NCBI GenBank assembly: GCA_009786535.1
Contig: WQRX01000003.1
Coordinates: 2,325-66,324, forward strand
Direction of reading: 5' to 3'
DNA from: Defluviitaleaceae bacterium
GTDB lineage: Bacteria > Bacillota > Clostridia > Lachnospirales > WQUN01
DNA length: 64,000 nt
In this document: one piece after another, positions 7,350-38,772 of the stretch
How the letters are laid out: every line of letters begins with the position of its first letter
How positions within the stretch are numbered: position 1 is the stretch's first letter
Translations under genes and position numbers: made by a program
Notes under the pieces: model-generated
Told to the model about the DNA's origin: nothing
The model's input: the letters and a program-made list of their open reading frames with translations, nothing else
Databases searched by the model: none

Positions 7350-7543
7350 ATTAACAACCAAACCACCTCTGCTAAAACACAGGAAAAACACCTTTGAGGA
7401 AGTAAAAGAATTTTGTCATATTTTGTATTGCAATTTATAAGAGTAGATGATATCTTGATTTGGGGAGCAGGAAAAATAAATGTCTAAAAAGCGCTACCAT
7501 TTTAGACAGCTCAAATACTTCCAAAAACAGGGGGACAAACGTA

Positions 7544-9226
7544 ATGTTTGCGTTTTTTATTGGTATTGTCGTAGGTGTTGCTGCTATGACAGCTTTGTAT
7601 ATCATGGTGCTTAAAAAAAGACCGCAGTATGAATCGGATGCGACGAACCGCAATACGAAAAATGACGATATGGACGCTTTAGTTGATGAAATAAACCGTG
7701 TAAGCAAAGCAATTCAATCCGATAATTGGTATGCTCGTTGTGATGCAAAAGCACTTACAGGAAAAAGCAAGGAAGTTGCCGCTGAAGTTAATCGTATCAC
7801 CGATACCATATTCGGATATATAGATGATATTCCTGCGGTGGTTGCTGCTTTTAATAAACAGGCACATTTTATGTATTTGAACAAACACGGTTTAGCACAA
7901 GGGTTTGAAATTTGCGATAAAACTGTTTATGAATTTGCGCCATCTGATGAAACCAAGATTGTGCTTAAAAATACACAGCACACATTAAGGACAGGTGAAA
8001 AAACACAGTTTCAAGTTACGATTCAATCACCCACAGGCGACCTTACGGAAGAATATATTTTTGACCCCATCAAAAACAGTAACGGTGAAATATTCGGTGC
8101 AATGCTTGTAAATTTTGATATGTCTGAGGTGCTTGCAAAGGGTAAAAAAGTTAATGCGTATCAAGAGTTTGAAGCAAAAGACATACAACAAAAACTAAAT
8201 GATGGATTGGCAAAGGGAATATTGCAGTTTGAGTATGCTCCCGAGTTTCACGACGACGATACAGCCCATGTTGCTGGTAATTATAGACAAATCGGTGAAA
8301 CCCTGCAGGCTTCTGTTAAAGTGATAAAAGATTATATGGACGAAATAAAAAGGCTTTTATTTTCTATTGCCAATGGCGATTTAACCGTGTCAATAAATCG
8401 TGAGTACAATGGCGACTTTGCATCTGTTAAAGAATCTATTAATAATATCAGTAGCAGTCTAAACAAAACCATGTCGGAAATAAATTCTGCTTCCGGGCAA
8501 GTGCTTTCCGGGGCAAAGCAAATTTCTACAAGTTCGACAGACTTGGCAACCGGAGCGCAACAGCAAGCCGGTTCTATAGAGGAATTAAACTCCACTATAG
8601 ACGTTATCAATCAACAAACGCAGAAAAACTCTGATAACGCAATGGTCGCAAGCGACCTTTCTAACAGGTCTACGACAAATGCTAAAGAGGGCAACGATGC
8701 AATGGTTAAAATGCTTGATGCGATGGTTCAAATTAAAGAATCAAGTACAGGCATTTCACGCATTAACAGAGTTATACAAGATATTGCGTTTCAAACAAAT
8801 TTGTTGGCACTTAACGCTGCCGTTGAAGCGGCTCGTGCAGGTGAACAGGGCAGAGGCTTTGCCGTTGTAGCGGAAGAAGTGCGCAGCCTTGCCGCTCGCA
8901 GCCAAGAAGCCGCACAGGAAACCACAGGTATGATAGAAGCTTCAATCCAACGTGTAGATACGGGAAGCGGTATCGCAGAAACAACCGCAGAAGCCTTGAA
9001 CGTAATTGTAAAAAACGCCGATGAAGTGTTGCAAATCATAAACGAAATTTCCGCTTCGTCACAGGAGCAAGCCGATGCCGTAAACCAAGTAAGCACAGGT
9101 ATTAACCAAATCTCTGCCGTAGTACAAAGCAACTCTGCCGTATCGCAAGAAACTGCGGCAGCCGCCGAGGAGTTGAACTCCCAAGCCGAAATATTGCAAC
9201 AGCTTGTATCTTATTTTAAATTATAA
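7544..9226 (+). CDS. Methyl-accepting chemotaxis protein with one N-terminal membrane anchor
   Basis: This 560-residue chemoreceptor has a single N-terminal hydrophobic helix (residues 2-22) and no periplasmic ligand domain. Next come a PAS-like cytosolic sensor region (about residues 90-200), a HAMP-like segment (about 245-300) and a long signalling coiled coil. The hairpin tip that binds CheA and CheW is present ([20 protein letters not shown]). Methylation-type heptads lie on both sides. The start at 7544 has CAGGGGGACAAACGTA upstream. The layout suggests sensing of a cytoplasmic or redox-related signal. No other che genes are in the window. Confidence 0.92.
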
Positions 9227-9239
9227 GGACGGAAAGGTC

Positions 9240-10472
9240 ATGCAATCACACAACCCCGCTATTGAAATTCGTGTAGCCAAAGAAAGTGATATTGAAATTC
9301 TCGCAGAGGTTATGGCTACCAGCTTTTGTTACGACCCGGCCTTTACATGGATGACCGACAATCACACCGAGCGATTTGACGCTTTGGTTGGATTTTTTCG
9401 GGTGATGGTAAAGCACGGAATGAACATCGGCATTGTACATGCTGCAGAAATGAACAAAATCGAATTAGTGGGGGTAAGTATTTGGCTTCCGCATGATTCA
9501 TCCGACGAAAAAGTAGATGCAGAGATTGAAAAGGCAGTCGGCAATTTGACCGTGCAATTTGAACTGTTTGCCGACTTGCTGTCATCGTGTTATCCGCCCG
9601 CAACGCCGTATTTTCAGTTGATGGCGGTGGGGATTCACCCAAAAGTACACGGTATTGGCATTGGCAGCCAGTTGTTATGTGAACAATTAAAAGAATTTGA
9701 TAAGATGGGTATGCCTACTTACTTAGAAGCAAGCACTCGGCGCTCCTCCACCGGTATATACGAGCGCCTCAATTATCAGCCTGTGGGTGAAATTATACAT
9801 TTCCCCAATGATGCCGAGATATTTCCTATGTGGCGTATCGCGCAAGATACCGACACAGCCTTGCTTATTGATGATTCTAATGATGACAAAGAATATCCCA
9901 CCATAGACAGCATTATCCAATTTGGGAAGTACGATTGGCGAGTGTTGGACGTACAGCAGAATATGACGTTGTTATTATGCGATAAAGTGATTGAATCTCG
10001 AAAATATAATGAGCGATTTGAACCTGTATCGTGGGAAACTGCATCCCTTCGTAAATACTTAAACAACGAATTCTACCACACTTTCACCGATGAAGAAAAA
10101 GCACGAATTATGAATGTCAAAATTACAACATACAGCAATCCTTGGTTTGGGACAAACGAAGTAACGGAAACAATGGATAATGTGTTCCTGTTAGGAATTG
10201 ATGGTGTAGTAAAATATTTTGGTGACAGCAAGCAATTACGAAGCAGAAATGCTAATACAAAATATACAATTAGCGATCATTTTAATTGGGCAAGGAAGGC
10301 AGTAAATATGCAAGGAGAAGCAACAAATTGGTTATTGCGTTCACCGGGGAACAATCCTTGTTTTGTTATTAATGTTTCCAGTGATGGCAGAATTTCCGTA
10401 AGCGGTGATTTTGTGAACCGTGAAGGCTATCCGTATGGGGGGATTCGCCCTGCATTGTGGATAAAGGTATAG
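9240..10472 (+). CDS. GNAT-type N-acetyltransferase fused to a DUF6273 domain
   Basis: This 410-residue protein has two parts. Residues 1-205 form a GNAT domain with an acetyl-CoA loop (VHGIGIGSQLL near residues 138-150) and a later STGIYERLNY motif. Residues about 220-410 match DUF6273 by the pattern IQFGKYDWRVLD, WETASLRKYLN, VFLLG and the terminal GGIRPALWIKV. DUF6273 usually sits in cell-surface proteins, so its place behind a cytosolic acetyltransferase is odd. The ATG at 9240 follows AAGGACGGAAAGG, 13 bases after the chemoreceptor stop. Confidence 0.82.
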   Translation: MQSHNPAIEIRVAKESDIEILAEVMATSFCYDPAFTWMTDNHTERFDALVGFFRVMVKHGMNIGIVHAAEMNKIELVGVSIWLPHDSSDEKVDAEIEKAVGNLTVQFELFADLLSSCYPPATPYFQLMAVGIHPKVHGIGIGSQLLCEQLKEFDKMGMPTYLEASTRRSSTGIYERLNYQPVGEIIHFPNDAEIFPMWRIAQDTDTALLIDDSNDDKEYPTIDSIIQFGKYDWRVLDVQQNMTLLLCDKVIESRKYNERFEPVSWETASLRKYLNNEFYHTFTDEEKARIMNVKITTYSNPWFGTNEVTETMDNVFLLGIDGVVKYFGDSKQLRSRNANTKYTISDHFNWARKAVNMQGEATNWLLRSPGNNPCFVINVSSDGRISVSGDFVNREGYPYGGIRPALWIKV

Positions 10473-10474
10473 CC

Positions 10475-11752
10475 ATGCCAACTCCATATTTAATCAACAA
10501 AATCTCCAAAGCCGTATGGCCGTACACCAACCGTATTTTGCTGGGCGATTTAAATAACGACGGCATACTGGAAATGGTACTGCTGCAAGCGGATAACGAT
10601 ATTGACGACCGCTTCATTCCGCATCAGTTAACGTGCATTATGGCAGTGGACGTACACGGGCGCGAGTTATGGCGCGTGGGCGAGCCTAAGCGGGAAATGG
10701 GGAAAACGGGTTCGGACTTCCCCGCGCAGATATATGACATTGACGGCGACGGCGAAAACGAAGTGCTGTGCGTAATGGGGAAGAAATTCCTTGTGCTGGA
10801 GGGCAAAAGCGGCCGCGTAAAAGCCGAATACCCCCTACCCAACGAATACGCCCACGACTGTATTATTCTCGCCAACTTGGAGGGCGCGGACAAGCCCAAA
10901 AACGTAATTCTCAAAAACCGCTATCATAAAATGTGGGCGATGAACCACGACTTTTCGGTAAAGTGGACCTTTGAAGGCAACCCGGGGCATTTTCCGTACC
11001 CCTACGATATTAATAACGACGGCTATGACGAAATTATGGCGGGCTACGACCTGCTCGACCGTAACGGAAACATCTTGTGGAGCGTTAATCAGGACGGACA
11101 CGCGGATTGTATATTTGTGGCAGACTTATATGGCGACGGGCAACGCCAATTTGTGATTGGCGGAAGCACCACCGCTATCTACGATGCAAACGGCAAAGAA
11201 TTAGCGCGGTATGACGATTCAGTAGAAACCCAGCACATTGCGGTGGGCAAATTCCTGCCCGATGAAAAGGGTACGCAAATTGCTTGCCTTGACAGAATTA
11301 TCCGTGGCGACCAGGGGGCGATAAAGTCCGATGCACCCCAGCCAAAGGACGGTATTTTTCTGCTAAACAACCACGCGCAATTGCTTTGGAAAGAAGAACG
11401 CACCACCGCGGGTTGGCTTACTATTATCGAAACGCTAAGCAACTGGGACGATACAGGGCGCGACTATATCTTAGCGTATCGGCGGGGCGGCGGCATTAAA
11501 CCTACGCTGTACAGCGGGGAAATAAAAAACGGCGCATTAACCGCCGTTGCTACCTTCCCCACGGAAGGTTATGTTGTACACGCGCCCTTATTTGGCGACG
11601 GGCGCGAAGATGTGGTAATTTTCGACAGCGAAAACATTTATATATATTCCTCGGTAGAACGGGACTTGCAAAGCCTTCCCAAGCACGCGCCAAAGCCCCA
11701 ACCCAAGCGGCTTTATATGGCTACGCTGTATCCCGGGGATGAGCGGACGTAG
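10475..11752 (+). CDS. FG-GAP/VCBS-type beta-propeller protein related to PL11 lyases
   Basis: This 425-residue protein carries at least four calcium-loop turns of the D-x-N-x-D-G type (GDLNNDGILEMV, YDIDGDGENEVL, YDINNDGYDEIM, ADLYGDGQRQFV). These match the propeller blades of rhamnogalacturonan lyases. It lacks a signal peptide and the N-terminal segment of the lyase at 5130. It starts two bases after the GNAT stop codon, so the two are translationally linked. It may be a pectin-oligomer enzyme or binding protein. Catalytic residues cannot be assigned by eye. The 3' end overlaps the convergent MFS gene by 32 bases. Confidence 0.78.
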   Translation: MPTPYLINKISKAVWPYTNRILLGDLNNDGILEMVLLQADNDIDDRFIPHQLTCIMAVDVHGRELWRVGEPKREMGKTGSDFPAQIYDIDGDGENEVLCVMGKKFLVLEGKSGRVKAEYPLPNEYAHDCIILANLEGADKPKNVILKNRYHKMWAMNHDFSVKWTFEGNPGHFPYPYDINNDGYDEIMAGYDLLDRNGNILWSVNQDGHADCIFVADLYGDGQRQFVIGGSTTAIYDANGKELARYDDSVETQHIAVGKFLPDEKGTQIACLDRIIRGDQGAIKSDAPQPKDGIFLLNNHAQLLWKEERTTAGWLTIIETLSNWDDTGRDYILAYRRGGGIKPTLYSGEIKNGALTAVATFPTEGYVVHAPLFGDGREDVVIFDSENIYIYSSVERDLQSLPKHAPKPQPKRLYMATLYPGDERT

Positions 11753-27980: not shown

Positions 27981-28064
27981 GCCCGAGTGGCGGAATTGGT
28001 AGACGCAAGGGACTTAAAATCCCTCGGTAGCAATACCGTGCCGGTTCGAGTCCGGCCTCGGGCA
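27981..28064 (+). tRNA. tRNA-Leu, anticodon TAA
   Basis: The 84-base cloverleaf has a 7-bp acceptor stem (GCCCGAG/CTCGGGC), discriminator A and a D arm with GGAATTGGTAGA. The anticodon stem GGGAC/ATCCC surrounds TTAAAA with anticodon TAA. A class II variable arm and the T arm GCCGGTTCGAGTCCGGC follow. CCA is not encoded. Its 3' part (28011-28064) is the insertion target of the element to the right and is supplied intact by the element. Confidence 0.97.
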
Positions 28065-28065
28065 G
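28011..28065 (+). other. attL, 55-bp attachment repeat in the tRNA-Leu 3' end
   Basis: This 55-bp segment is identical to 38718-38772. It spans the anticodon loop to the base after the discriminator. Confidence 0.93.
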
Positions 28066-28076
28066 TGTTGTAAAAT

Positions 28077-28115
28077 CAAGGTTTCTGACCATTCGTCGGG
28101 AACCTTGGTTTTTTA
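28077..28115 (+). terminator. Terminator for tRNA-Leu supplied by the element
   Basis: A stem CAAGGTT/AACCTTG (28077-28083, 28101-28107) with inner pairing is followed by GTTTTTT. It lies inside the element, replacing the chromosomal terminator that now sits right of attR. Confidence 0.7.
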
Positions 28116-28136
28116 TTTCGAGGCCAATTTTTGCTC

Positions 28137-28161
28137 ATGTCCCCGAAATGTCCCCGATATT
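28137..28161 (+). repeat. Subterminal 25-bp direct repeat, left copy
   Basis: This sequence is identical to 38557-38581. It holds two tandem copies of ATGTCCCCGA. It lies just outside the integrase stop codon, about 75 bases from attL. Confidence 0.85.
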
Positions 28162-28163
28162 GT

Positions 28164-29315
28164 TCAGTTTGTGAAATTAACAAAACGCTCGTTCAATTTT
28201 GATGCAATTTCCTTCTTTGCATCCATGTCTAAGCTAAGGTAAAGATTCGCGGTGGTTTGGATATCGCCGTGTCGTAGCCATGTTTGAATATCCTTCAAGT
28301 CAAATCCCAAATACTTCAAGTACCCAGCGGAAGAATGGCGCAAATCATGGAAACGAATGATTGGCATATTACTCTGGCGCAACAGCGTTTCAAAATGGTC
28401 GGTAACATAATCTGGTTTTATGAGTCGCCCATCAAACCTTGTGCAAACGTAATCGCTCTTGAAATAATCGTTTGGCTGTATTTTTTTGTACTCGACCTGC
28501 CGCGCCTTCCACCGCAGTAATTCCGTTTTTATCATTTCGCCCAAAGGAATTACGTCGTAGCTACTGTCATTCTTGGTAGCGTCCATCATGAACATTTCCC
28601 CGTGCATGTACGTTACGGTATGCTTGATTGTAATGGTATGAGCATCCATGTCTATGGCACTCCATTTTAACCCAAGCACCTCGCTTCTCCGAAATCCATA
28701 GAAGACCGTTAGCAGCACAACCATTTCCAAGGGGTCGCCCTTTGAACATTTTAATAGCTGCTCAATTTGTTTCTCGTTGTAATGCTTTGCGCCAGTGTAC
28801 TTGACCTTTTTAGGCATCTCAATCCGCTTAGTGGGATTGAACGCAATTAAGTTTTGTCGCACGGCACTATCAAGACATTTGGAAATATTCCGAAGGTGCT
28901 TGATAATAGTGTTGGGCGAAATGGATTTCATCTTATAATTCACATAATCTTGGATATGGGCAGGGGTTAAATCTTTTACCCTAATCCGCTTTGGCTCGAA
29001 AAACGGCGTGATTTGATTATTGAGAATTACCTTGTATCCACTGTAGGTAGTTGGTGACAACGAATGTTTCAGATTCTCAAGCCATTGCCGCATGAAATCG
29101 AGGAACAAGATGTTGCTGCTTAAATCAACCTTATGTCGCTCATGTTCAGCCAGTACCTCCTTTAATATGTCCTGCGCCCGTCGCTTATTATTTCCCTTGA
29201 TTGGGATGTTCGTGGTTATCCACTTTTCCTGCGGCTTGTTCGTAACATCATCTTTATAACGAATTACGATGTAGTAATTTGGGCGCTCTTTTTTTGTTCG
29301 TAGTGTTGCAGTCAT
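28164..29315 (-). CDS. int: Tyrosine recombinase integrase
   Basis: This 383-residue integrase has an arm-binding N-terminal domain and a core-binding SAM-like domain (about residues 65-150). The catalytic domain carries Arg in FYGFRRSEVLGLKW, HDLRHSSAGYL (H-x-x-R), RHGD and the Tyr nucleophile in TANLYLSLD. It should recombine attP with the tRNA-Leu attB site. The start at 29315 has AAAGGATGA upstream, and earlier in-frame starts do not fit a site. The gene ends about 100 bases from attL. Confidence 0.96.
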   Translation of the reverse strand: MTATLRTKKERPNYYIVIRYKDDVTNKPQEKWITTNIPIKGNNKRRAQDILKEVLAEHERHKVDLSSNILFLDFMRQWLENLKHSLSPTTYSGYKVILNNQITPFFEPKRIRVKDLTPAHIQDYVNYKMKSISPNTIIKHLRNISKCLDSAVRQNLIAFNPTKRIEMPKKVKYTGAKHYNEKQIEQLLKCSKGDPLEMVVLLTVFYGFRRSEVLGLKWSAIDMDAHTITIKHTVTYMHGEMFMMDATKNDSSYDVIPLGEMIKTELLRWKARQVEYKKIQPNDYFKSDYVCTRFDGRLIKPDYVTDHFETLLRQSNMPIIRFHDLRHSSAGYLKYLGFDLKDIQTWLRHGDIQTTANLYLSLDMDAKKEIASKLNERFVNFTN

Positions 29316-29427
29316 AAGTATCATCCTTTCTGAATGAAAAAATCCCACCTATGCTACAGCCAGTCACGAAGTATTATAACACAGGAAGGATTTTTGTCAT
29401 ACTTGGAACGCATTTACTCAGGTAAAA

Positions 29428-29655
29428 TCATGAATCGCACACATTAAAGAATTGATTTTGAATGTAAATTTTTGGCACTTTGCAAGCGCAACCTATCCGA
29501 ATAGGTGTGCCGAATTTGCCGTTTTGAAGCTCTTTATAAATAGTTTGCTTGGAAACATCGAAGATGGTGCATAAATCGCTTACATTGAGAATATCGCGAT
29601 AACCGTCAAGGGTTGATAAATTATATGCAGAACTCTGGGCCGATTGAAAATTCAT
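29428..29655 (-). CDS. Helix-turn-helix excisionase-like protein
   Basis: This 75-residue protein carries a MerR/Xis-type helix-turn-helix (ILNVSDLCTIFDVSKQTIYK, then NGKFGTPIRIG wing-like turn). Such proteins act as excisionases that bend attachment DNA beside integrase genes. The ATG at 29655 has GAGGTGAGC upstream. It is transcribed toward int, as is usual for xis-int pairs. Residues after the wing (CACKVPKIY) are shorter than in typical excisionases. Confidence 0.75.
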   Translation of the reverse strand: MNFQSAQSSAYNLSTLDGYRDILNVSDLCTIFDVSKQTIYKELQNGKFGTPIRIGCACKVPKIYIQNQFFNVCDS

Positions 29656-29796
29656 TATGCTCACCTCAAATAATTAAAATATATATGCATCTACGCATAA
29701 TTTGGGTGGATGTATGGATCGATAATTAATATTCCATAGAACAACTTGGATCAACTCGTTTGTAATATACTAGCGAATTTCTAATTTATGTCGAAA

Positions 29797-30189
29797 TTAT
29801 TCTCGTTTTGCAAAGACTGCTTGTATCTCATCAGTTGAAATACCTTGCATCGATAAGAGCTGACGAACATCATTTGGTATGCATTCAATGTTTTTGAATA
29901 AAACCATGCGGGATTGTTTGGCATGTTTTTCTGAAACAACTTTCAGCTTGCATAATTCATCCAGAATGTTTCCAGCTCTGTTGCCCATGCGAAATTGTTT
30001 TGCGATTTGACAAGCAGAAATACGTTTATACCCCAATGACCACAATATGATTGCGGCCAATTCCTTTTCACGAGTATTTGATGCTACGATAGGAGCTAAT
30101 GATTCATCGTTCAATGTAGATGCAGACGAATTAAAGATTTCCAAGATTAATTTATTGCTGGTTTCATGTGCGTCAGGAAAAATGCACAC
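29797..30189 (-). CDS. Winged-helix protein, FtsK-gamma-like segment
   Basis: This 130-residue protein has a central region (about residues 40-95: LAAIILWSLGYKRISACQIAK, then RMGNRAGNILDELCKLKVV) that resembles the DNA-reading gamma winged helix of FtsK translocases. The ATPase part is absent. It may be a small DNA-binding regulator. The start is probably the GTG at 30189 with GAGGCAAGG upstream. It lies between the excisionase-like gene and the divergent antitoxin gene, a common place for an element repressor. Confidence 0.6.
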   Translation of the reverse strand: MCIFPDAHETSNKLILEIFNSSASTLNDESLAPIVASNTREKELAAIILWSLGYKRISACQIAKQFRMGNRAGNILDELCKLKVVSEKHAKQSRMVLFKNIECIPNDVRQLLSMQGISTDEIQAVFAKRE

Positions 30190-30335
30190 TTTCCTTGCCT
30201 CGATTTGAAAAATTTCTCGTGAGCATCTTGACTTTTACACCGCAGGGTTGTGACTCTAGGTGACCCCTCCAGGGTTGGCTCAATGGTGGCTCGTTGAAGA
30301 TTACAAGCAAATTATAAGATAAAAAAACCGTAAAA

Positions 30336-30367
30336 AGTTTGCATTTGCAACTATTTTGCCGTACACT
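30336..30367 (+). promoter_or_regulatory. Promoter and probable operator of the antitoxin gene
   Basis: TTGCAT (30339-30344), a 17-base spacer and TACACT (30362-30367) form a promoter. An imperfect palindrome AGTTTGCATTTGCAACT (30336-30352) overlaps the -35, which fits self-repression by a RelB-type protein. Confidence 0.6.
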
Positions 30368-30384
30368 CATGGTGAGGTGATGCC

Positions 30385-30699
30385 ATGGTTAAAACATCGG
30401 TTACCAAAACAGCGAATATCAATGTACGCCTTTATCCTGAGTTAAAAACCGCGGCGGAAAACGTCTTTACTTACCACGGGTTATCATTACCAGACGCAAT
30501 AACGGTGTTTTTTAGCCATGCCTGTCGTGTGGGTGGATTTTCCTTTGAATTAAAGGGTGCGCGGTGGAATGACCCTGTTTCCTTAGCGGCATTACAAGAG
30601 AGCAATGAAATTCTTGCAAATCCGAATGCATATAAAAGTTATCACGATGTTTCGGAGTTGTTTGCCGATTGTTTGAATGGCGAAGATGACGATGATTAA
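30385..30699 (+). CDS. RelB/DinJ family antitoxin
   Basis: This 104-residue protein has an N-terminal ribbon-helix-helix (ANINVRLYPELKTAAENVF, then HGLSLPDAITVFF) typical of RelB/DinJ, which bind their own operator and a YafQ-type RNase. The C-terminal half would wrap the toxin. The ATG has GGTGAGGTGATGCC upstream. The downstream toxin gene is cut short (30692-30757), so this antitoxin appears orphaned. Confidence 0.9.
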   Translation: MVKTSVTKTANINVRLYPELKTAAENVFTYHGLSLPDAITVFFSHACRVGGFSFELKGARWNDPVSLAALQESNEILANPNAYKSYHDVSELFADCLNGEDDDD

Positions 30700-30757
30700 A
30701 CGCGAAGTACATCGTTCTGCTCAATTTCGCAAGGATTTACGGTTGGCGTGTAAATAA
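30692..30757 (+). pseudogene. Truncated YafQ-like toxin start (21 codons plus stop)
   Basis: The frame MIKREVHRSAQFRKDLRLAC ends with one further Lys codon and TAA. It matches the first helix of YafQ-family mRNA interferases, whose usual length is about 90 residues. It overlaps the antitoxin end by eight bases, as intact yafQ genes do. Catalytic residues are absent. No rest of the gene is visible downstream. Confidence 0.75.
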
Positions 30758-30800
30758 AGTTCAACAACTGCGCAACATATAAAACACATAACATCATTTA

Positions 30801-30833
30801 AACCCGTGCCGATTGGTGCGGGTTATTTTATTT
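30801..30833 (+). terminator. Terminator after the antitoxin gene
   Basis: Arms AACCCGTGCC and GGTGCGGGTT (30801-30824) pair over 10 positions with two wobbles, followed by ATTTTATTT. It separates the antitoxin unit from the reverse transcriptase. The RT ribosome binding site begins 10 bases later. Confidence 0.7.
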
Positions 30834-30848
30834 CGAGGAGGAAGCCCC

Positions 30849-31988
30849 ATGCCATTTATTACAATTAAACAACCGCCCGTTTATTATCAGATGACCTTTG
30901 AAGATATGATGGCGGGTGTGGAAGATTTAAGTAAATATGTAATGTCCAATATCACCAACACGCGCACTTACTGGGTAAACCGCCCCAGCCGTAAATTGCT
31001 AGAGCGTACACAAATTGGTGAGATGATACAATTGCTCAGTGCGTTTAACCGCTCGAAGGAAGCATTATTCACACAGGAAAGGCGGGCATTGTACCATACG
31101 TTTCATATCCCCAAGAGCAGCGGTGGATTACGCCGTATCGACGCGCCTTGTCCAGAGCTAATGAATACCTTGCGGGAATTAAAATCGTTAATTGAAAATC
31201 ACATGTTCGCGCTATACCACACCACCGCATTCGCTTATATTCGCGGACGCAGCACCATCGGCGCAATAAAACGCCACCAGCGCAATGAAAGCAAGTGGTT
31301 CTTGAAACTGGACTTCGCGGATTTCTTTGGTAGCACTACGCTGAAGTTTGTGATGAGTATGTTATCACAGATATTTCCCTTTAGCGAAATAGTCAAAAGC
31401 ACCCACGGGCGGGAAGAACTTGAAAAGGCACTTAGCCTGTGTTTTCTCAATGGTGGACTGCCGCAAGGGACACCCATCTCGCCCTTCCTTACCAATTTAA
31501 TGATGATTCCCATTGACCATTGCATTAGTAATGATTTGCGAAATTTGGATAATCGCCGTTTCGTTTACACCCGCTACGCCGATGACTTGTTAATTTCATG
31601 CAAGACTAATTTTGATAAGGATTTAGTGCAGCGGCTTGTAAATGAAGCACTATCGAAGTTTAACGCCCCGTTTTCGATTAAAGCGGAGAAAACGCGCTAC
31701 GGTTCTGCCGCTGGGCGCAACTGGAACTTAGGGCTAATGCTTAACAAGGATAACGAAATCACCATCGGTCACAAGCGCAAGAAAGAATTTAAAGCAATGC
31801 TGGAAAACTATATGCGTGACCGTAAAGCGGGTAATGCTTGGGATAAATATGACTTACAAGTTTTACGTGGTCTTATCAGTTACTACCGCATGGTGGAGCG
31901 GGATTACATTGACTACCTGCTCCAGCAATATGGGAAAAAGCATGGCACGAATATTAATTTCTGTATTAAAACAGATTTATCGGCGTAA
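30849..31988 (+). CDS. Retron-like reverse transcriptase
   Basis: This 379-residue RNA-directed DNA polymerase has fingers-palm motifs in order. They are an IPKSSGGLRRIDAP block (residues 88-101), LDFADFF with catalytic Asp155, GLPQGTPISPFLTNL (203-217) and the active site RYADDLLIS with Asp245 and Asp246. NLGLMLNKDN (293-302) sits where retron enzymes carry their VTG motif, and GAIKRH (138-143) sits near their NAxxH motif. There is no maturase, endonuclease or other fused domain. CGAGGAGGAAGCCCC gives a strong ribosome binding site at 30849. An RNase HI gene follows after 13 bases. Retron, defence-RT or a new group are all open. Confidence 0.93.
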   Translation: MPFITIKQPPVYYQMTFEDMMAGVEDLSKYVMSNITNTRTYWVNRPSRKLLERTQIGEMIQLLSAFNRSKEALFTQERRALYHTFHIPKSSGGLRRIDAPCPELMNTLRELKSLIENHMFALYHTTAFAYIRGRSTIGAIKRHQRNESKWFLKLDFADFFGSTTLKFVMSMLSQIFPFSEIVKSTHGREELEKALSLCFLNGGLPQGTPISPFLTNLMMIPIDHCISNDLRNLDNRRFVYTRYADDLLISCKTNFDKDLVQRLVNEALSKFNAPFSIKAEKTRYGSAAGRNWNLGLMLNKDNEITIGHKRKKEFKAMLENYMRDRKAGNAWDKYDLQVLRGLISYYRMVERDYIDYLLQQYGKKHGTNINFCIKTDLSA

Positions 31989-32001
31989 AGGGAGGTGCGT
32001 A

Positions 32002-32436
32002 ATGAAAAAAGTAACGATATATACCGATGGCGCGTGTTCTGGAAACCCTGGCCCTGGTGGATATGGTGCGGTGTTATTATTTGGAAATCACCGCAAAGAG
32101 TTATTCGGTAATGTACAAATGACCACTAATAATCGCATGGAATTGATGGGCGCAATCATCGCGTTAGAAACCCTCAAATCTGCCTGTGAGGTAGAAATCT
32201 TTTCCGACTCCCGCTACCTCGTTGATGCCATTGAACAGAATTGGGTTACACGATGGAAGGCAAACGGCTGGCGGCGAAACAAACGCGAACCCGCATTAAA
32301 CGTAGATTTGTGGGAGCGATTGTTACCTCTTCTTGCAATGCACAAGGTTACGTTCCGTTGGGTTAAAGGACACGCGGGTAATGTGGAAAATGAACGCTGC
32401 GATGCGTTAGCGCGAGTAGCGATAAAAAATCTATAA
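32002..32436 (+). CDS. Ribonuclease HI encoded beside the reverse transcriptase
   Basis: This 144-residue enzyme degrades RNA in RNA-DNA hybrids. All four catalytic acids are present: Asp9 (IYTDGAC), Glu47 (NRMELMG), Asp69 (FSDSRYL) and Asp134 (NERCDALA). GHAGNVENE provides the conserved His loop, and a basic WKANGWRR handle segment is present. The start has GGGAGGTGCGTA upstream. It is 13 bases after the RT stop, so the pair is one operon. RNase H could trim the RNA template of the cDNA made by the RT. Its length is typical of stand-alone type 1 enzymes. Confidence 0.95.
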   Translation: MKKVTIYTDGACSGNPGPGGYGAVLLFGNHRKELFGNVQMTTNNRMELMGAIIALETLKSACEVEIFSDSRYLVDAIEQNWVTRWKANGWRRNKREPALNVDLWERLLPLLAMHKVTFRWVKGHAGNVENERCDALARVAIKNL

Positions 32437-33295
32437 GGTGCATTAATTAATGTCCTTACAACAAGCCTTTGTAATGAATAGTTGGATTTATCAACGCTTC
32501 ATGTGTTTCGCTGAAGTATTAAAACGCAAGGCTAGGAGGGGTGAACGACGAAGCGCTGGGGCCGAGATCTGTGGTCTTCTCTGCAGGTTATTTATTTCGT
32601 GTTGATTGAAGATGTTGATAAATCAAGGTGTTTTTCCATACCTAAATTATTTGTCCACAGCTTTTCATGACGTCAACGGGAGGATGCAGCCTGAGGCACG
32701 CCGGTTACACCTCATCCACTTCTTCGTAGATTACAAAGGGTAATGAAGTCCATTTACAATGTATAGTTCTATTATTGATGCGAACCGCGTGCCCTTTGCA
32801 CAAGGGTACGTGGGTTCGTCTTTACTGGAATGCTCTGCGGTAAAACCCAGAGTGAAAAAACGTCAACGCAGGAGGGTGGCGCGCAGGAACGAATCTGGAG
32901 AAATACGGGTTCATGGGATGACCATAATGAGGGTTCGTCATTGGGTCGGCTGTTGGAATTCCCCATAATTTTAATATTGGCGGGGGTTGCGATCTCATCG
33001 ACTGCCGTGTATCCGCCTGCCGCGGCTGTTGTGCTCCTCCTGAGCCTTTAGCTCGCACCTGTTGCAGATTGTAAATGTGTAAAATGAAAATCCATAATGT
33101 ATAACTGCATCAACAGGATGCGGTGCTTCGTGGTTAAACCCGTAGTTGTGAAATTGCAAGCAATGTCGCAAATCTCCAAGAGATTTGCTCCTGTGTCAAA
33201 GCACCACACCAACTGCAGGGACTAAACCGCCGAGTTCCTTCGGCTTGGCAGCCAGCAGGAACTCCGCCGTTTAGACCCTTCCGTTGGGCGTTTCT
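32437..33295 (+). ncRNA. Large structured non-coding region downstream of RT-RNase HI (candidate template RNA)
   Basis: No supported protein frame exists here, but pairing is dense. (1) A long-range stem joins about 32482-32503 to 32606-32627 (TTTATCAAC with GTTGATAAA). (2) ACTTC/GAAGT encloses ATTAC/GTAAT at 32718-32748. (3) A 15-bp hairpin with one bulge lies at 32780-32818. (4) CATTTACAAT (32752-32761) can pair with ATTGTAAATG (33068-33077) and would close a domain of about 325 bases. (5) GGTGCTT/AAGCACC (33122-33205) encloses a perfect GCAAATCTC hairpin (33168-33188). (6) A long hairpin with 18 of 21 pairs lies at 33219-33277. The strand and the number of RNAs are inferred. Confidence 0.6.
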
Positions 33296-33325
33296 TTGTG
33301 GATTATGGATTAAACGTGGTATACT
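33296..33325 (+). promoter_or_regulatory. Promoter of the ATPase gene, extended -10
   Basis: TTGTGG (33296-33301), an 18-base spacer and TATACT (33320-33325) preceded by TGG. The ribosome binding site AAAGGGG follows 14 bases later. Confidence 0.65.
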
Positions 33326-33353
33326 AAACTAAGTAACGAAAGGGGTTGCAATC

Positions 33354-34745
33354 GTGACTAATGTATTTTTCGAGCGGGATATTTATGCCTATTTAATAAA
33401 ATGGGTAGAGCAATTTTCTGATAGGGCATTATATTTGAATGGACCCCGCCAAGTGGGGAAAACCAGTATCCTAAAAAAACTGGGGGCGGAGCATTTTGAA
33501 CGGTGTGTGTATATTAATCTTTATATTGACGATGTCAGAAACGACTTTGAGCAAAGCATCCGCACGCACAGAGAAAAATTTGGCACATCCAAGTTCGATG
33601 AAGAATGCGGCCCTATGTGGGAAGAAATTTTAAAAGCACAAGATTCAAACTACACCAATGACCCAGCCACACTGGTTATTCTGGATGAAATTCAAGAATC
33701 CTCCATTGCGTACAATAATATTCGTCAGATACGCCGTGGGTTAAAAAGCAAGTTGGCAATAACGGGAAGTTATTTGGGTATCGTAAGCAATTTTAAGGGA
33801 TATAAGTTTCCCACAGGCGATGTAACATTTGCAGAAATGTCCAGCATGACATTCATTGAGTTTTTAAAAGCAAATGGCGTGTGGGAAAATTACGACCCCA
33901 TTCAAACCTTCGATTGGGCAAAAATGACCGAGCATGAACAAGAAACTTGTGAACATGTACGTGAATTATATCGCGTGTATTGCATAATCGGTGGATATCC
34001 TGATGTTGTTAGTAAGTGGGTCAACACGCATAATATGGATGCTTGCAAACTCTTAACCGCAGATTTGTTGCAGTCATTCTACAGGGAGAGTAGTGCCTAT
34101 TTTGAAGAAATTATTGGGCGAACCCTCTGGATGAAAACACTGGGCAGGGTAGCCGCGCATATGGTCACCAAATCGGGCGACCTAGATATTACAATTGCAA
34201 AGGAAGTTTTTCGCGACAATACCAGCGAGGGGTTGGGTATACGGCGTAGAGATAAAATAAATGCGCTCAAGTGGCTGGATGAATGCTGTATAACAGGTAC
34301 AGTCCCCGTATTTGACAAGCTAGAAAAAGTAACCTCTATCGGTAATAAATTATTTTTCTATTTCCGAGATATGGGTCTTTTAACACAGTTATGCGAAGAT
34401 GATTTTGATGTTTTAAAAAGCAATTACGACGGCATGGCGGCGGAAAACTTTGTTTATCTTCACCTTCTTGAAGAAACAGGTAAATTGTTTGTTGGTGACG
34501 ATGTTCGTAGCTTTAGTAATCCGCAAGGTCAAATTGATTTCGTAATGCACGACAAAAACCGCAAACGCTACGGCATCGAGGTCAAGCACGGTAAAGGGGA
34601 AACCAAGTCGGCAGACACAGCTTTGCGTGAGGGGCGAATCGACTTCCTCATCAAAGTACAGGACACCTATGGCTCGATACAGGACAACCAAGCTACAATT
34701 CCTATCTTCATGCTGGATAAATTAAAATATATAATCAAAAAATAA
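33354..34745 (+). CDS. AAA-type ATPase with DUF4143-like C-terminus
   Basis: This 463-residue protein has Walker A GPRQVGKTS (about residues 30-38), Walker B LVILDEIQE (about 109-117) and a sensor-like KLAITGSYLG. A middle helical region leads to a C-terminal domain with QIDFVMHDKNRKRYGIEVKHG. That fits the D-x(n)-E-x-K pattern of PD-(D/E)XK folds seen in the DUF4143 family. The GTG start has GAAAGGGG upstream. Such ATPases are common cargo in islands, and their function is poorly known. It has its own promoter and terminator. Confidence 0.88.
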   Translation: MTNVFFERDIYAYLIKWVEQFSDRALYLNGPRQVGKTSILKKLGAEHFERCVYINLYIDDVRNDFEQSIRTHREKFGTSKFDEECGPMWEEILKAQDSNYTNDPATLVILDEIQESSIAYNNIRQIRRGLKSKLAITGSYLGIVSNFKGYKFPTGDVTFAEMSSMTFIEFLKANGVWENYDPIQTFDWAKMTEHEQETCEHVRELYRVYCIIGGYPDVVSKWVNTHNMDACKLLTADLLQSFYRESSAYFEEIIGRTLWMKTLGRVAAHMVTKSGDLDITIAKEVFRDNTSEGLGIRRRDKINALKWLDECCITGTVPVFDKLEKVTSIGNKLFFYFRDMGLLTQLCEDDFDVLKSNYDGMAAENFVYLHLLEETGKLFVGDDVRSFSNPQGQIDFVMHDKNRKRYGIEVKHGKGETKSADTALREGRIDFLIKVQDTYGSIQDNQATIPIFMLDKLKYIIKK

Positions 34746-34768
34746 GAAAATAGATTTTACTTTTACAA

Positions 34769-34806
34769 TGACCCTGGTTCATTCCGAACATGGGGTTATT
34801 TTTTTG
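34769..34806 (+). terminator. Terminator after the ATPase gene
   Basis: A hairpin with arms around ACCCTGGTTC and GAACATGGGGT is followed by TATTTTTTT. Confidence 0.75.
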
Positions 34807-34890
34807 AGATAAAATTCGATTTTATAATGTAAGCGCATAAAGTTTGCCATTGCCTCTACTTAGAAATAAATAAAATCTAGGAGTGAGGTC

Positions 34891-37524
34891 ATGAATGATA
34901 TAGCCGTTAGTTTACTTCTGCATAAATTTACGCAAAAACCCAGCGAGGCCGAAGCAGCAATAATCAGCAGCAGCATCGCTAAAAATGTTCATAACATCAA
35001 GCGAAACGAACTTAAATTGTTAGCGCAAGCGATAGGCGAAAATGGAGTTGTTTTTTGCCCGGCTACATTTAACAACGGTGCTCGTAATAGTGATAATTTC
35101 AACCAGACGCAATTAATTGCACTGGACTTCGACAACAAAGTGCCAGATAAGTTTATATCATTTAAATCTGTACAGGATAGGGCTGATTATTATGACCTGC
35201 CAATTCTTTTTTCTTACGAAACCTACACCAGCAGAAACCATGATAAATTCAGAGTAGTATTTTTGAACGATGCGCCCATTCCTGATACGAGAACCGCTAA
35301 GGCGATGTTGCAAGCCTTACACACGATTTTCCCGGAAGCTGACCCCCAAGGGAAAAGCCCGGTGCAGATGTATTACGGTGGCAAAGGTCTGCTCCACTAT
35401 AATGAAGCCAATCCTGAAATTAATGCAAGTTCCCTGTTCACAAACCTTACGCATTATTTCGAAGATACCCACGGTCCACACACTTACCGTCGAAAAGTTG
35501 CCGAGTTTGCTCGGGTATCAGGGATTTCACTCAACGAGAAGAAACTACTGGATGTTTCTGTAACCGAGGAAGTCGCTGAGCGTGATGGTGCGGGGTGTTT
35601 TGTTAAAAACCTACCAAACTCTACTACTATATTATCTAGCTTTGGTGAAAAATTAACAAAACGGTATCGAATTAATTTTGGGGAAGGTTGCACCCATACC
35701 CTCAGCGCCAGCGGAAAGACCGATTTTCACAGAACGCTTCGGGCCGGTGACTTCGATAGTCTTCGTAGTTGCTGTCAATTATTCCGTGAATTTGAAAACG
35801 GAAGTCGGCGGTTGCCACATTCAGAGCTATTTGGACTGGCTACTAATTTGGCACATGTTGAAACAGGTGCTAAGTGGTTCATCGGTACCCTCCGCTCTGT
35901 CGCGTATTATGATAACCGACCTGATAAATACCGAAAATGGCAACAGGATTTCCGATATATAAAAGCACCCTCTGCCTGTGTGGGGTTCTGCCCCTTTGCA
36001 AATGATTGTACCCATGGTATGAATATTATATCCACCGCCAAGGTGAAGCATAATAAAATGGAACGGCTTGCTAATTATCAAGAAACCTATGTTTCGCTGG
36101 ATGAAGCCGTTGATGATTTCAAAAGAAATCTACTCCGCACCGTGGATGCCGATGATGGAAAGTGGCACGTTATAAAGGCGCAAACTGCGTTAGGCAAGAC
36201 AAGGACTTATTTGGAATATCTCAAGGATACACAAAAAAAGGTATTGATAGCAGTGCCAACATTAGCGCTTATGCAGGAGATATGCGACCGAGCTACCCAA
36301 TCGGGAATAGATATTATTGCATCCCCATCGTTACGCGAATCAAAAGATTTACTACCCGATGATATTTGGAATGATATCGAGGGGTTATACGAAATGGGTA
36401 AATCGGTAATTCCCTATTTACAAAAGCACATCCGTGAAGATAATCCATCTTGCGCGGCATTGTTTAAGCAGTATTTAACTGAACTATCCGCCTTTAAAAA
36501 TAATGATGGACACGGCATAACCACACATAAACGCTTGCTCACCATGGATACCGATAATTATGATTTAATTATCATCGATGAAGATATCATTCTTAACAGT
36601 GTCATTCAAAACAAATGCAGCATATCAATACGTCAACTAAAAAAGTTACGCACCAAAGCGCCACCAAACAGTGCCTTGCTCCGCAAAGTCCAAGCGGTAT
36701 TAAGATATGTAAAAAAGCATGAGTTTTTCACCCTGCGCAAAATTGAATATGACAAAGACTACGAGGATATATCGGCGGCAACCGATATATCCTCATTTTG
36801 TGCTGCCAAGTATTTTTGTTTTTGCAAAGCAAAAAGCGCTGATGGTGATAATAACCAAGATGAAAGCTGTGTTCATTTTCTAAAACCCGTAGTGTTTAAG
36901 GGACACACTACACGCATCATGGTATCCGCCACTGCCGATGAAACAATATGCAACCTCTACTTTGGCAAAAGTAATGTAGACTTCCACGAATGTAAATGCG
37001 CCCAAAACGCAGGAACTTTTCGCCAATATTATAACATACCCATGAGCCGCCAGAGCATCGGTAAAGATAATGCAATTATAAAACGAATTATAAATTGGTC
37101 AGGTTTCACAGAAACCATATCTTTCAAAAAATTCAAGCAGCACTATGGAGGTGAGTTACACTTTGGTAACACCGCTGGTTATGACGGGTTAAAAGGGATG
37201 TCAGTAAATATTATCGGTACGCCCCACCAGCCCGAATGGATTTACAAGCTATTTGCATTATCCATTGGACTGGATACTGACCCAATATTAAAACCAGGTG
37301 TGACGGTAAACCATAATGGCTACAGATTCCGTTTCACCACCTACGACAACGCTAGTTTGCGCGCGATTCAATTTTATATTATCGAATCGGAACTGGAGCA
37401 AGCGGTAGGTCGGGCGCGATTGCTTCGCGAAGCAAGTGGGGTTATTAATCTGTTCTCTAATTTCCCGCTTCGTCATGCAAAAATGCTTACATGGAAAGAT
37501 AGCACCACTCAATCGGAAAATTAA
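34891..37524 (+). CDS. Primase-helicase replication protein of the element
   Basis: This 877-residue protein has an N-terminal primase-polymerase-like part (about residues 50-140, with the acidic LIALDFDN motif) and a Cys-rich zinc-finger-like patch (ACVGFCPFANDCTHG near residue 370). A C-terminal superfamily 2 helicase follows: an ATP loop variant in AQTALGKTRTYLEYL (about 430), a DEDI box in LIIIDEDIIL, a TRIMVSATADE motif III, and an AVGRARLLRE motif VI-like arginine segment. It probably starts replication of the excised element. GGAGTGAGGTC precedes the ATG. Confidence 0.8.
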   Translation: MNDIAVSLLLHKFTQKPSEAEAAIISSSIAKNVHNIKRNELKLLAQAIGENGVVFCPATFNNGARNSDNFNQTQLIALDFDNKVPDKFISFKSVQDRADYYDLPILFSYETYTSRNHDKFRVVFLNDAPIPDTRTAKAMLQALHTIFPEADPQGKSPVQMYYGGKGLLHYNEANPEINASSLFTNLTHYFEDTHGPHTYRRKVAEFARVSGISLNEKKLLDVSVTEEVAERDGAGCFVKNLPNSTTILSSFGEKLTKRYRINFGEGCTHTLSASGKTDFHRTLRAGDFDSLRSCCQLFREFENGSRRLPHSELFGLATNLAHVETGAKWFIGTLRSVAYYDNRPDKYRKWQQDFRYIKAPSACVGFCPFANDCTHGMNIISTAKVKHNKMERLANYQETYVSLDEAVDDFKRNLLRTVDADDGKWHVIKAQTALGKTRTYLEYLKDTQKKVLIAVPTLALMQEICDRATQSGIDIIASPSLRESKDLLPDDIWNDIEGLYEMGKSVIPYLQKHIREDNPSCAALFKQYLTELSAFKNNDGHGITTHKRLLTMDTDNYDLIIIDEDIILNSVIQNKCSISIRQLKKLRTKAPPNSALLRKVQAVLRYVKKHEFFTLRKIEYDKDYEDISAATDISSFCAAKYFCFCKAKSADGDNNQDESCVHFLKPVVFKGHTTRIMVSATADETICNLYFGKSNVDFHECKCAQNAGTFRQYYNIPMSRQSIGKDNAIIKRIINWSGFTETISFKKFKQHYGGELHFGNTAGYDGLKGMSVNIIGTPHQPEWIYKLFALSIGLDTDPILKPGVTVNHNGYRFRFTTYDNASLRAIQFYIIESELEQAVGRARLLREASGVINLFSNFPLRHAKMLTWKDSTTQSEN

Positions 37525-37804
37525 AACAGTGCGCCTTCTAAACCGCCAATTTTGGACATTATTAAATGAATTAGAGCGATGGGTGAGGTGGGTGAAATAT
37601 AACCCCTCACCCTGTTACTATACTAAAAAGAGTAGGATATTCTATTATTGAATGACGAATTTTCATAAAGATAATATATGGGGACGTTGAGTGACAAGTT
37701 GCAAATGTAATAATGTGGTATTGTTGGATAAATTATATTCCCAATCCGACCGATGCGCATTATAATGTTATTGGATTAAAACGATAACTATTGGGAGGTG
37801 CTCA
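37525..37804 (+). promoter_or_regulatory. Intergenic region with a hairpin and a probable promoter
   Basis: A hairpin GGGTGAGG/CCTCACCC (37581-37612) has no T-run. A TATAAT (37761-37766) lies 39 bases before the next ATG, with only a weak -35. I see no gene here. The region may also hold the replication origin of the element, but no iterated sites are evident. Confidence 0.4.
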
Positions 37805-38071
37805 ATGTTAAAAAAGATAGAAAACCAAGAAATTATAACCACCCGTGAAGCAAAAGCAAAGTATCCAACACAATATATCTACATGCTTCTCACAAAGACC
37901 GTTGACATGAGCGGTCAAAACGATTTGGGGTATGTAGAATATATAGCTGACAAAAAAAAGGAACTGCTCCAAATTCCAAGAGAAAATTACAAAGGAAAAT
38001 TAACAGCCTCATTAGACGGTGAAGATACGGAACCGTTCCCAATTCTTGACAGGGTGGTTTATTATGACTAG
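37805..38071 (+). CDS. Small protein paired with the retropepsin gene, unknown function
   Basis: This 88-residue charged protein has no recognised family. TTGGGAGGTGCTCA gives a strong ribosome binding site. Its last three codons overlap the start of the protease gene, so translation is coupled and the products may act together, perhaps as substrate or inhibitor. The N-terminus (ITTREAKAKYPTQYIYMLL) could be helical. Confidence 0.7.
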   Translation: MLKKIENQEIITTREAKAKYPTQYIYMLLTKTVDMSGQNDLGYVEYIADKKKELLQIPRENYKGKLTASLDGEDTEPFPILDRVVYYD

Positions 38072-38555
38072 CATTGAATTTGAAAAATATGGTCGAGTGT
38101 TTATTAATATTTATGCAAAACCAGTGGATGATAATATTATGCTTCCTATTCAATTCAAAGTCGATACTGGGGCGGATATGTCAACGATTGCAAAGGCAGA
38201 CTTGGCGAGACTGGGTTATGACATGGATTGGATTAAAGAAAATGCAATTGTTTTTGAAGATAAGGATAAGCCCACAACGGCTTCCGGGGATAAGATAAAC
38301 GCAGGCTATGTTCAATTACCGCTGATTAACATTTTAGAATACGAAGGCAAAAAATGGCCTTTTCAAATTATCATGGATGAACAACAAGATTTTCGTAATT
38401 TAATGGGTCGTGATTTATTAACCGGGTTTAATTATGAATTTAATAATGATGACGATGTATTCACGATACGAAGAGCCAATAAATTTAAACCCAGATATAA
38501 ATTTATACTTGGGCAGGAAATTCATGAAATATTAATTGGGGATTCTAAGAAATAA
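38064..38555 (+). CDS. Retropepsin-like aspartic protease
   Basis: This 163-residue protein carries the single-domain aspartyl protease signature FKVDTGADMSTI, with the catalytic Asp34 in DTGA. The matching late motif is FRNLMGRDLL (about residue 115), in the place of the retropepsin I-x-G-R-[DN] segment. Such enzymes act as homodimers. Its start at 38064 overlaps the upstream small gene. It is the last gene before the right subterminal repeat and attR. Cellular substrates of bacterial members are mostly unknown. Confidence 0.85.
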   Translation: MTSIEFEKYGRVFINIYAKPVDDNIMLPIQFKVDTGADMSTIAKADLARLGYDMDWIKENAIVFEDKDKPTTASGDKINAGYVQLPLINILEYEGKKWPFQIIMDEQQDFRNLMGRDLLTGFNYEFNNDDDVFTIRRANKFKPRYKFILGQEIHEILIGDSKK

Positions 38556-38556
38556 A

Positions 38557-38581
38557 ATGTCCCCGAAATGTCCCCGATATT
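38557..38581 (+). repeat. Subterminal 25-bp direct repeat, right copy
   Basis: Identical to 28137-28161. It starts right after the protease stop codon and lies about 137 bases from attR. Confidence 0.85.
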
Positions 38582-38717
38582 CGTAAAAAAATCCGTTCGC
38601 GTGGGTACAATAATTTTTTCGCAGGGCAAAGCAAAAGGGCACGCAAACCCGCTAATTATCTAGGTTTATCGGTTGTTAAGGAATATTAAGTGTGACCAGC
38701 TGTAGCATAGAAAAAAA

Positions 38718-38772
38718 GACTTAAAATCCCTCGGTAGCAATACCGTGCCGGTTCGAGTCCGGCCTCGGGCAG
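38718..38772 (+). other. attR, duplicate of the tRNA-Leu 3' part
   Basis: 55 of 55 bases match 28011-28065. It lacks the 5' half of a tRNA, so it is not a functional tRNA gene. Confidence 0.93.

Follow-up and report, generated by a model that had tools for sequence, protein, structure and literature searches.

A clade of retron-like reverse transcriptases, found in gut bacteria and phages, that probably serves several different RNA templates

How many RNA templates can one retron-type reverse transcriptase (RT) serve, and where may they lie? The msr-msd of a retron is normally encoded upstream of the enzyme, and in the standard layout, according to a review (PMC6868368), there is one RNA template per RT. 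The question is raised by a locus of a Defluviitaleaceae bacterium (GenBank assembly GCA_009786535.1, contig WQRX01000003.1, positions 2,325 to 66,324), a stretch of 64,000 nucleotides that is called the window here and is numbered from its first letter. A first-pass annotation of its letters had described an intact RT with a YADD motif, an RNase HI with four catalytic acids beginning 13 bases past the RT stop codon, and then a structured region without a supported gene, and had proposed a self-contained cassette that carries its own RNase H and one large template downstream. The parts are real, but their arrangement reads differently in our analysis, which points to a retron-type system whose single RT probably serves several different templates. 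The features concerned are listed below, where ncRNA denotes a noncoding RNA, a1 and a2 its pairing arms, and SL1 and SL2 its stem-loops.

30849 to 31988, + strand: retron-like RT of its own clade, 379 amino acids from its ATG, with RYADD intact, AIKRH at the place of NAxxH and NLG at the place of VTG
32002 to 32436, + strand: RNase HI that retains its four catalytic acids; an accessory that only a minority of relatives carry
32466 to 32739, + strand: ncRNA d1, with a1 at 32466-32475, putative priming G at 32476, SL1 and SL2 at about 32481-32517, and a2 at 32730-32739
32751 to 33077, + strand: ncRNA d2, with a1 at 32751-32760, putative priming G at 32761, an SL1 extended by a long insertion, SL2, and a2 at 33068-33077
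33089 to 33311, + strand: ncRNA d3, with a1 at 33089-33098, putative priming G at 33099, SL1, SL2, a third hairpin, a long msd-like hairpin, and a2 at 33302-33311

Both enzymes are confirmed by Pfam, PADLOC and NCBIfam models and by their residues. The same holds for the structured region of about 0.85 kb: the open reading frames (ORFs) listed for positions 32437 to 33353 are all short and overlap d1 through d3, and the strength of the pairings is far above chance. The gap before the RT is also short and mostly terminator, as had been described, with the start codon about 95 bases past a 21-codon ORF and a terminator-like hairpin between them at 30801-30824. What does not hold is the view of the region as one large RNA. 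Folding, combined with comparison to a second RT locus in the host genome (G000:C6, whose RT is 74% identical to that of the window), resolves it into three tandem retron-type ncRNAs spaced 11 bases apart. In each element a1 pairs across 0.2-0.3 kb with a2, a G stands right after a1, and SL1 and SL2 are followed by a longer region. An Rfam search of window positions 30200 to 34000 gave no match at E≤1.

Covariance models reveal that such arrays are common beside related enzymes. A first model, R1, covers a1, SL1 and SL2 and was built from six elements of the window and locus L003; in the host genome it finds only seven copies, all beside the two RTs. A second model, R2, was built from 73 matches, and both models were applied to RT loci from GTDB genomes (19 loci) and IMG/VR (21 loci). 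Together with the window and L003 these make 42 loci (the others being L006-L024 and L032-L052), or 37 distinct ones after removal of the duplicates and near-duplicates L012, L035, L036, L044 and L047; L005, a shorter copy of L006, was also left out. Across the 37 loci R2 detects 116 elements at E≤1 and 98 at E≤0.01, every one of them on the RT strand. At least one element is present in 36/37 loci at E≤1 (32/37 at E≤0.01), and at least two are present in 33/37 (27/37 at E≤0.01). The number per locus ranges from zero to eight, with the maximum in L032, and element size across the clade is about 0.2-0.35 kb. Relatives of the window RT and its array thus occur in gut phages and bacteria with up to eight putative templates per enzyme. 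Most elements lie downstream of the RT, a few at a distance of kilobases. Within 400 bases after the RT stop codon an element is found in 28/37 loci, and in 23 of them it lies no more than 35 bases from the stop; within 400 bases before the RT, one is found in 27/37 loci, the window not being among them. The idea, drawn from the window, that a template after the RT is the defining order of this system is therefore not supported. Finally, when 196 genomes of the same order were searched, R2 (E≤0.001) matched four, and three of these four also carry a matching RT (E≤1e-60).

The 116 matches become 115 in the census (one in L013 is cut by the locus end) and 113 in an ungapped scan for a helix of at least 9 bp that ends exactly at the last a1 base (L018 7465 and L038 7407 are too short). 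Such a helix joins a1 to its own downstream region in 68/113 elements, and most elements are closed in this way. When the region is taken from other loci the count falls to 5-9/113, and when it is taken from another element of the same locus, to 3-6/109. Because own-region pairing so far exceeds same-locus swaps, neighboring elements appear to be insulated from each other. The base that follows the anchored a1 helix is G in 78/78 cases, and the base that precedes a2 is G in 77/78.

Covariation leads to the same structure. In alignment A3, tested against 500 shuffles, 15/16 msr pairs have changed on both sides and 98.5% of cells are paired, values reached by 0/500 shuffles, and shifting the partner by one to three columns lowers pairing to 32-46%; these values lean toward the structure because A3 was fitted to it. 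Plain MAFFT alignments of d3 (seven rows) and d1 (eight rows) were folded with RNAalifold without constraint, and a1/a2, SL1 and SL2 were recovered in both. The d3 alignment additionally yields the third hairpin and a long msd-like hairpin, with double changes in 38 of its 65 pairs. The first-pass annotation had suggested looking for covarying stems in the downstream region, and A3, RNAalifold and the arm scan support a conserved, covarying structure there. DnaA boxes were also considered as a shared feature of the elements, and were dropped with three found against 1.08 expected.

The enzyme itself is retron-like, as had been proposed. The window RT matches Pfam RVT_1 (1.5e-20) and PADLOC RT_II-A (2.3e-50), its best Protein Data Bank (PDB) matches are retron RTs (Ec83 at 4.8e-23), and it scores 186 bits with the NCBIfam model retron_St85_RT, below the cut-off of 235. 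RYADD is conserved in all 33 of the 37 family RTs that were aligned. A tree, which the first-pass annotation had also called for, was built with 16 of these 33 and with 28 RTs from 29 loci of the class picked by the St85 model (L089 gave no RT ORF). The 16 family rows and three of the picked RTs (L083, L084 and L087) form one set (support 100/97) that is separate from group II RTs and from the remaining retron-like RTs in the sample. On this tree the RT belongs to a clade of its own, and by its matches it is nearest to retron RTs. Among the 29 picked loci R2 is strong only in clade members L083 (three elements) and L084 (two); its E value is no better than 0.2 in L088 and L071. The array therefore seems to follow the clade rather than retron RTs generally, if not every member of it. 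Plasmid records gave no match at 1e-20; at 1e-3 all matches are below 60% identity, those among the matches listed being 20-33% identical. Against phage records there are two matches at 1e-20, the better one 41.6% identical and from an unannotated record.

By analogy with retrons (PMC6868368), we infer the following course of priming and copying. The RT and its ncRNAs would be made on a single transcript, since the first downstream element lies so close to the RT stop codon in the 23 loci noted above. The RT would bind each msr through SL1 and SL2 and prime on the 2′-OH of the G after a1. The msd would then be copied from beside a2 to give one branched, RNA-linked single-stranded DNA (ssDNA) per element, and hence a set of distinct products of the kind called msDNA in retrons. 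The template would be trimmed by RNase H, supplied by the host or, at a small number of loci, by a gene next to the array. Separate a1/a2 pairs would prevent mispairing between neighboring units.

Are these products distinct in function, or are the elements spare copies? The most serious alternative is that they are redundant templates that arose by local duplication, increase the amount of a single msDNA and have no separate jobs. A FastTree analysis of full-length elements from 11 loci bears on this point. Elements of type d3 form one group across loci (support 0.98), as do those of type d1 except for the L032 copy (0.97), whereas d2 elements form only a weak group (0.66) that includes six extra copies from L032; the first downstream element of L010 is placed weakly with d3. 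For upstream elements of different loci, most blastn matches are just 50-140 bases long, those between L009 and L023 and between L009 and L008 being longer. L032 itself carries eight elements around one RT (5509-10763), six of them d2-like, and its RNase HI sits between two elements. These six copies do resemble a local expansion, and the variation in element number from locus to locus also fits redundancy. Nevertheless, in termite-gut loci the identity and order of d1, d2 and d3 are kept across host families, convincingly for d1 and d3 and less so for d2, while a1 sequences, lengths and msd structures differ. Thus, d1 and d3 look like an old, maintained set, and d2 like a locally expanded one. 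Because d1 and d3 each persist as a recognizable type from host to host, their products probably have different jobs, and we judge mere redundancy to be unlikely.

The array is not the only recurrent companion of these enzymes. ORF clustering and the census identify a cassette before the RT that encodes proteins of 130, 76 (protein C) and 480 (protein B) amino acids, a JAB protein and a ThiF protein, the last of these in 31/37 loci. The predicted structure of protein C (pLDDT 90) has ubiquitin-like folds as its Foldseek matches in the PDB, and C proteins have no terminal glycine pair. The JAMM motif is present in 28/28 JAB proteins, and Pfam lists nothing for the one JAB protein tested. The one ThiF protein tested matches Pfam ThiF at 1.4e-23; among the cassette proteins tested with PADLOC, only ThiF shows E1-E2 similarity. 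A fold search with protein B against the PDB gave nothing at E≤0.001. A PHI..C motif occurs in 8/14 B proteins, and 25/25 share an invariant His and an invariant Cys with a spacing of six residues. We take this motif to be comparable to the E2 HPN..C site, as a lead only.

We also link the '6d' ubiquitin-like operons with PRTRC. In the descriptions available, these share with the cassette adjacent genes for a ubiquitin-like protein (Ubl), a JAB protein and an E1, as judged by protein C fold, JAMM motif, ThiF and gene order. There are also differences: the tested ThiF reaches 28 bits with the PRTRC_ThiF model, whose cut-off is 144.75, no PRTRC model is matched at E≤0.1 by any of 25 B or 25 C proteins, the C proteins of the clade lack the glycine pair, and an RT and ncRNA array follow the cassette. 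The closest among the published accounts consulted is that of Ubl-JAB-E1-E2 operons, several of them on mobile elements (Iyer et al., 2006), and the term 'reverse transcriptase' does not occur in the available main text of that paper. No published link between reverse transcription and a ubiquitin-like cassette turned up in the literature searched.

Many carriers of the system are probably phages, since a terminase match is present in 9 of the 12 viral records tested (out of 21 viral loci). This is modest evidence because the terminase model used, phrog_2, also matches 11/14 control genomes and one of the nine viral matches is weak (2.7e-4). In the host genome the sole terminase match is weak and lies on a different contig, so that the host RT copies are not established as prophages. 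In six of the nine matched records (L032, L039, L043, L049, L050 and L051), between one and five TGA or TAG codons stand in frame within the terminase match, and the RTs of five of them (L051 was not aligned) have no internal stop. A possible reading is late-gene stop-codon reassignment, or else interrupted genes. The system appears to be carried by mobile elements and phages, and in most loci it follows a cassette for a putative Ubl, a JAB peptidase, an E1 and possibly an E2.

A number of observations weigh against the reading of one RT with several retron-type templates beside a ubiquitin-like cassette. With respect to the enzyme, NAxxH and VTG are each present in 14/16 validated retron RTs (PMC6868368). 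Among the 33 aligned family RTs, NAxxH is found at the region X place in none (L017 has one chance string elsewhere), its place being held by A[IV]KRH in 19/33 or, more loosely, A[IVL][KR][KR]H in 27/33. VTG at the region Y place is replaced by NLG in 32/33, where NLG aligns with the VTG of Ec83 and L046 has a VTG string a few residues before its NLG. With respect to the RNAs, the priming G of validated retrons stands in TAGC or listed variants, ACGC among them, whereas in the 78 anchored helices the context is ATGn in 64, TTGn in 4, ACGn in 7 (only 2 being ACGC) and GCGn in 3. The ungapped scan misses an anchored helix in 35/113 elements, and the msd of d1 shows no conserved helix in RNAalifold of its eight-row alignment. 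The arrays, too, are uneven: no R2 element is detected in L048, only one each in L017, L024 and L052, and none at E≤0.01 in L021, L022, L049 and L051, while in L087, which the tree places in the clade, the 3.7 kb of sequence contain no R2 match. In genome G022, which is 93% complete, d1, an ORF and d2 lie near a contig end (C46, 20793-21493, termed L063) with no adjacent RT, and no RT match is present at E≤1e-60. Finally, the ThiF cassette is missing from the window, L016 and L019 despite the presence of upstream sequence; L021, L033 and L038 could hardly show it because their upstream sequence is shorter than 1.2 kb.

Set against these points is what the clade shares with retrons, of which the type II-A and St85 models are the nearest by RT: a related RT, an ncRNA with complementary ends (about 8-30 bases in retrons, according to the same review), a G after the 5′ arm, msr stem-loops that covary and, in d3, an msd-like hairpin. 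It differs from them not only in the features just given and in its score below the St85 cut-off, but also in having several ncRNAs per RT, mostly after the gene. A possible alternative msr has been noted for Retron-Sen1 (Se72) (PMC6868368), but the description available there is not of a tandem set of msr-msd units. Retron arrays engineered for editing at several sites (Gonzalez-Delgado et al., 2024, by its title) are man-made, in contrast to the natural and conserved arrays described here. We found no natural multi-template retron in the literature, judged from listings and abstracts, and the main retron classification (Mestre et al., 2020), which lay outside this scope, may list the clade.

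Could the elements instead act in cis, regulating a polycistronic transcript or guiding its processing? In favor of this, elements in L033, L034 and L038-L040 occupy the space between genes almost completely, leaving a few bases on either side, a few elements lie kilobases from the RT, and those of G022 have no RT alongside. The retron-type layout, with a G after a1 in all 78 anchored helices, argues against this possibility, as does the company that the elements keep, beside RTs only in the host genome and beside the RT in 36 of the 37 loci at the looser threshold. We consider this explanation improbable. Slightly less probable still is a use like that of defense RTs of the DRT type, in which the RNAs would be bound but the complementary DNA would be protein-primed and repeat-like or gene-like rather than msDNA. 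The family RT has neither NAxxH nor VTG and makes up a separate clade, and certain other defense RTs work with an ncRNA, as far as available accounts go. Nonetheless, the sequence matches of the window RT are retron RTs, the Drt2 and Drt3a models give only 47 and 39 bits against 186 for St85, and paired arms followed by G are the retron priming layout in the descriptions available. That one large downstream template and a dedicated RNase H form a fixed cassette, the idea with which the locus was first presented, agrees with the true order of parts in the window but is very improbable given three separate closed elements, RNase H in only 5/37 loci, and upstream elements in most.

RNase H deserves separate comment, as retron RTs typically lack this activity and rely on a host enzyme (PMC8989520). 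That of the window is a convincing RNase HI (Pfam 3.5e-45; NCBIfam ribonuclease HI 206.9 bits, cut-off 160) with the catalytic acids D9, E47, D69 and D134, and the host genome has another that is 63% identical. Within the fetched flanks the gene occurs after the RT in the window, L015, L022 and L032 and about 5 kb before the RT in L043, in two architectures. The second RT of the host genome is accompanied by an array, but the 14 kb retrieved for its locus contain no RNase H. We therefore reject a dedicated RNase H as a constant part of the system; it is a recurring accessory.

The remaining features of the window place the locus in its genomic context.

28011 to 38772, strand not applicable: probable integrated island, about 10.7 kb long and including the RT locus, with an exact 55-bp repeat of the 3′ part of tRNA-Leu at both ends, and an integrase
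30385 to 30699, + strand: RelB-like antitoxin, just below the Pfam cut-off, upstream of the RT; a neighbor and not part of the system
33354 to 34745, + strand: AAA_14/DUF4143 ATPase (PADLOC candidate PDC-S01), starting 42 bases past the array; a possible partner only

The tRNA-Leu repeats (28011-28065 and 38718-38772) enclose an integrase gene at 28164-29348 on the - strand, and the RT locus likely lies in an island integrated between them. Upstream of the RT, the RelB-like gene and the 21-codon ORF (30385-30757) stand in place of the cassette and upstream ncRNA of most relatives; the ORF reads like the truncated start of the partner toxin. The window copy is thus a reduced derivative, without cassette or upstream ncRNA and with an extra RNase HI. 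A gene of the same PADLOC family as the ATPase also follows the array in L006. Also within the island, positions 34891-37524 encode an 877-aa protein that weakly resembles DEAD helicases and matches a PHROG whose function is unknown, and a small protein adjoining the integrase (29797-30189, - strand) has a weak FtsK-gamma-like domain below the Pfam cut-off. In L063 the end of another reading frame occupies the place of the RT beside d1, d2 and the small ORF, and the contig ends there. Genes near other arrays encode an isochorismatase (L033 7573-8094), a macro domain (L038 2911-3366), a cytidylyltransferase-like/AAA_28 protein (L020 9448-10632), DUF3990 (L042 7386-7874) and a phosphoesterase (L034 9163-9837); we guess that these might be NAD-related.

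What might such a system do? No constant effector was seen among the loci, and the Ubl cassette is a candidate for this role and nothing firmer. Our guess, a weakly supported one, is element-borne defense or counter-defense in which several msDNAs would sense or act as decoys and the response would come from the cassette or a different neighbor. More tentatively than the multi-template reading itself, and with considerable doubt, we suggest that these loci may represent a separate phage- or element-borne retron class, in which one RT, a conserved msDNA set and a ubiquitin-like conjugation cassette make up a device with several probes, immune or counter-immune in purpose, that is coupled to protein modification.

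If a natural RT does serve several distinct and mutually insulated templates, the view of retron specificity would change, and it would become possible to test directly whether different msDNAs sense different triggers. Such loci would also offer naturally occurring arrays from which several ssDNAs could be produced together. That a ubiquitin-like cassette regularly accompanies the system, often on phages, suggests that reverse transcription and protein modification are connected.

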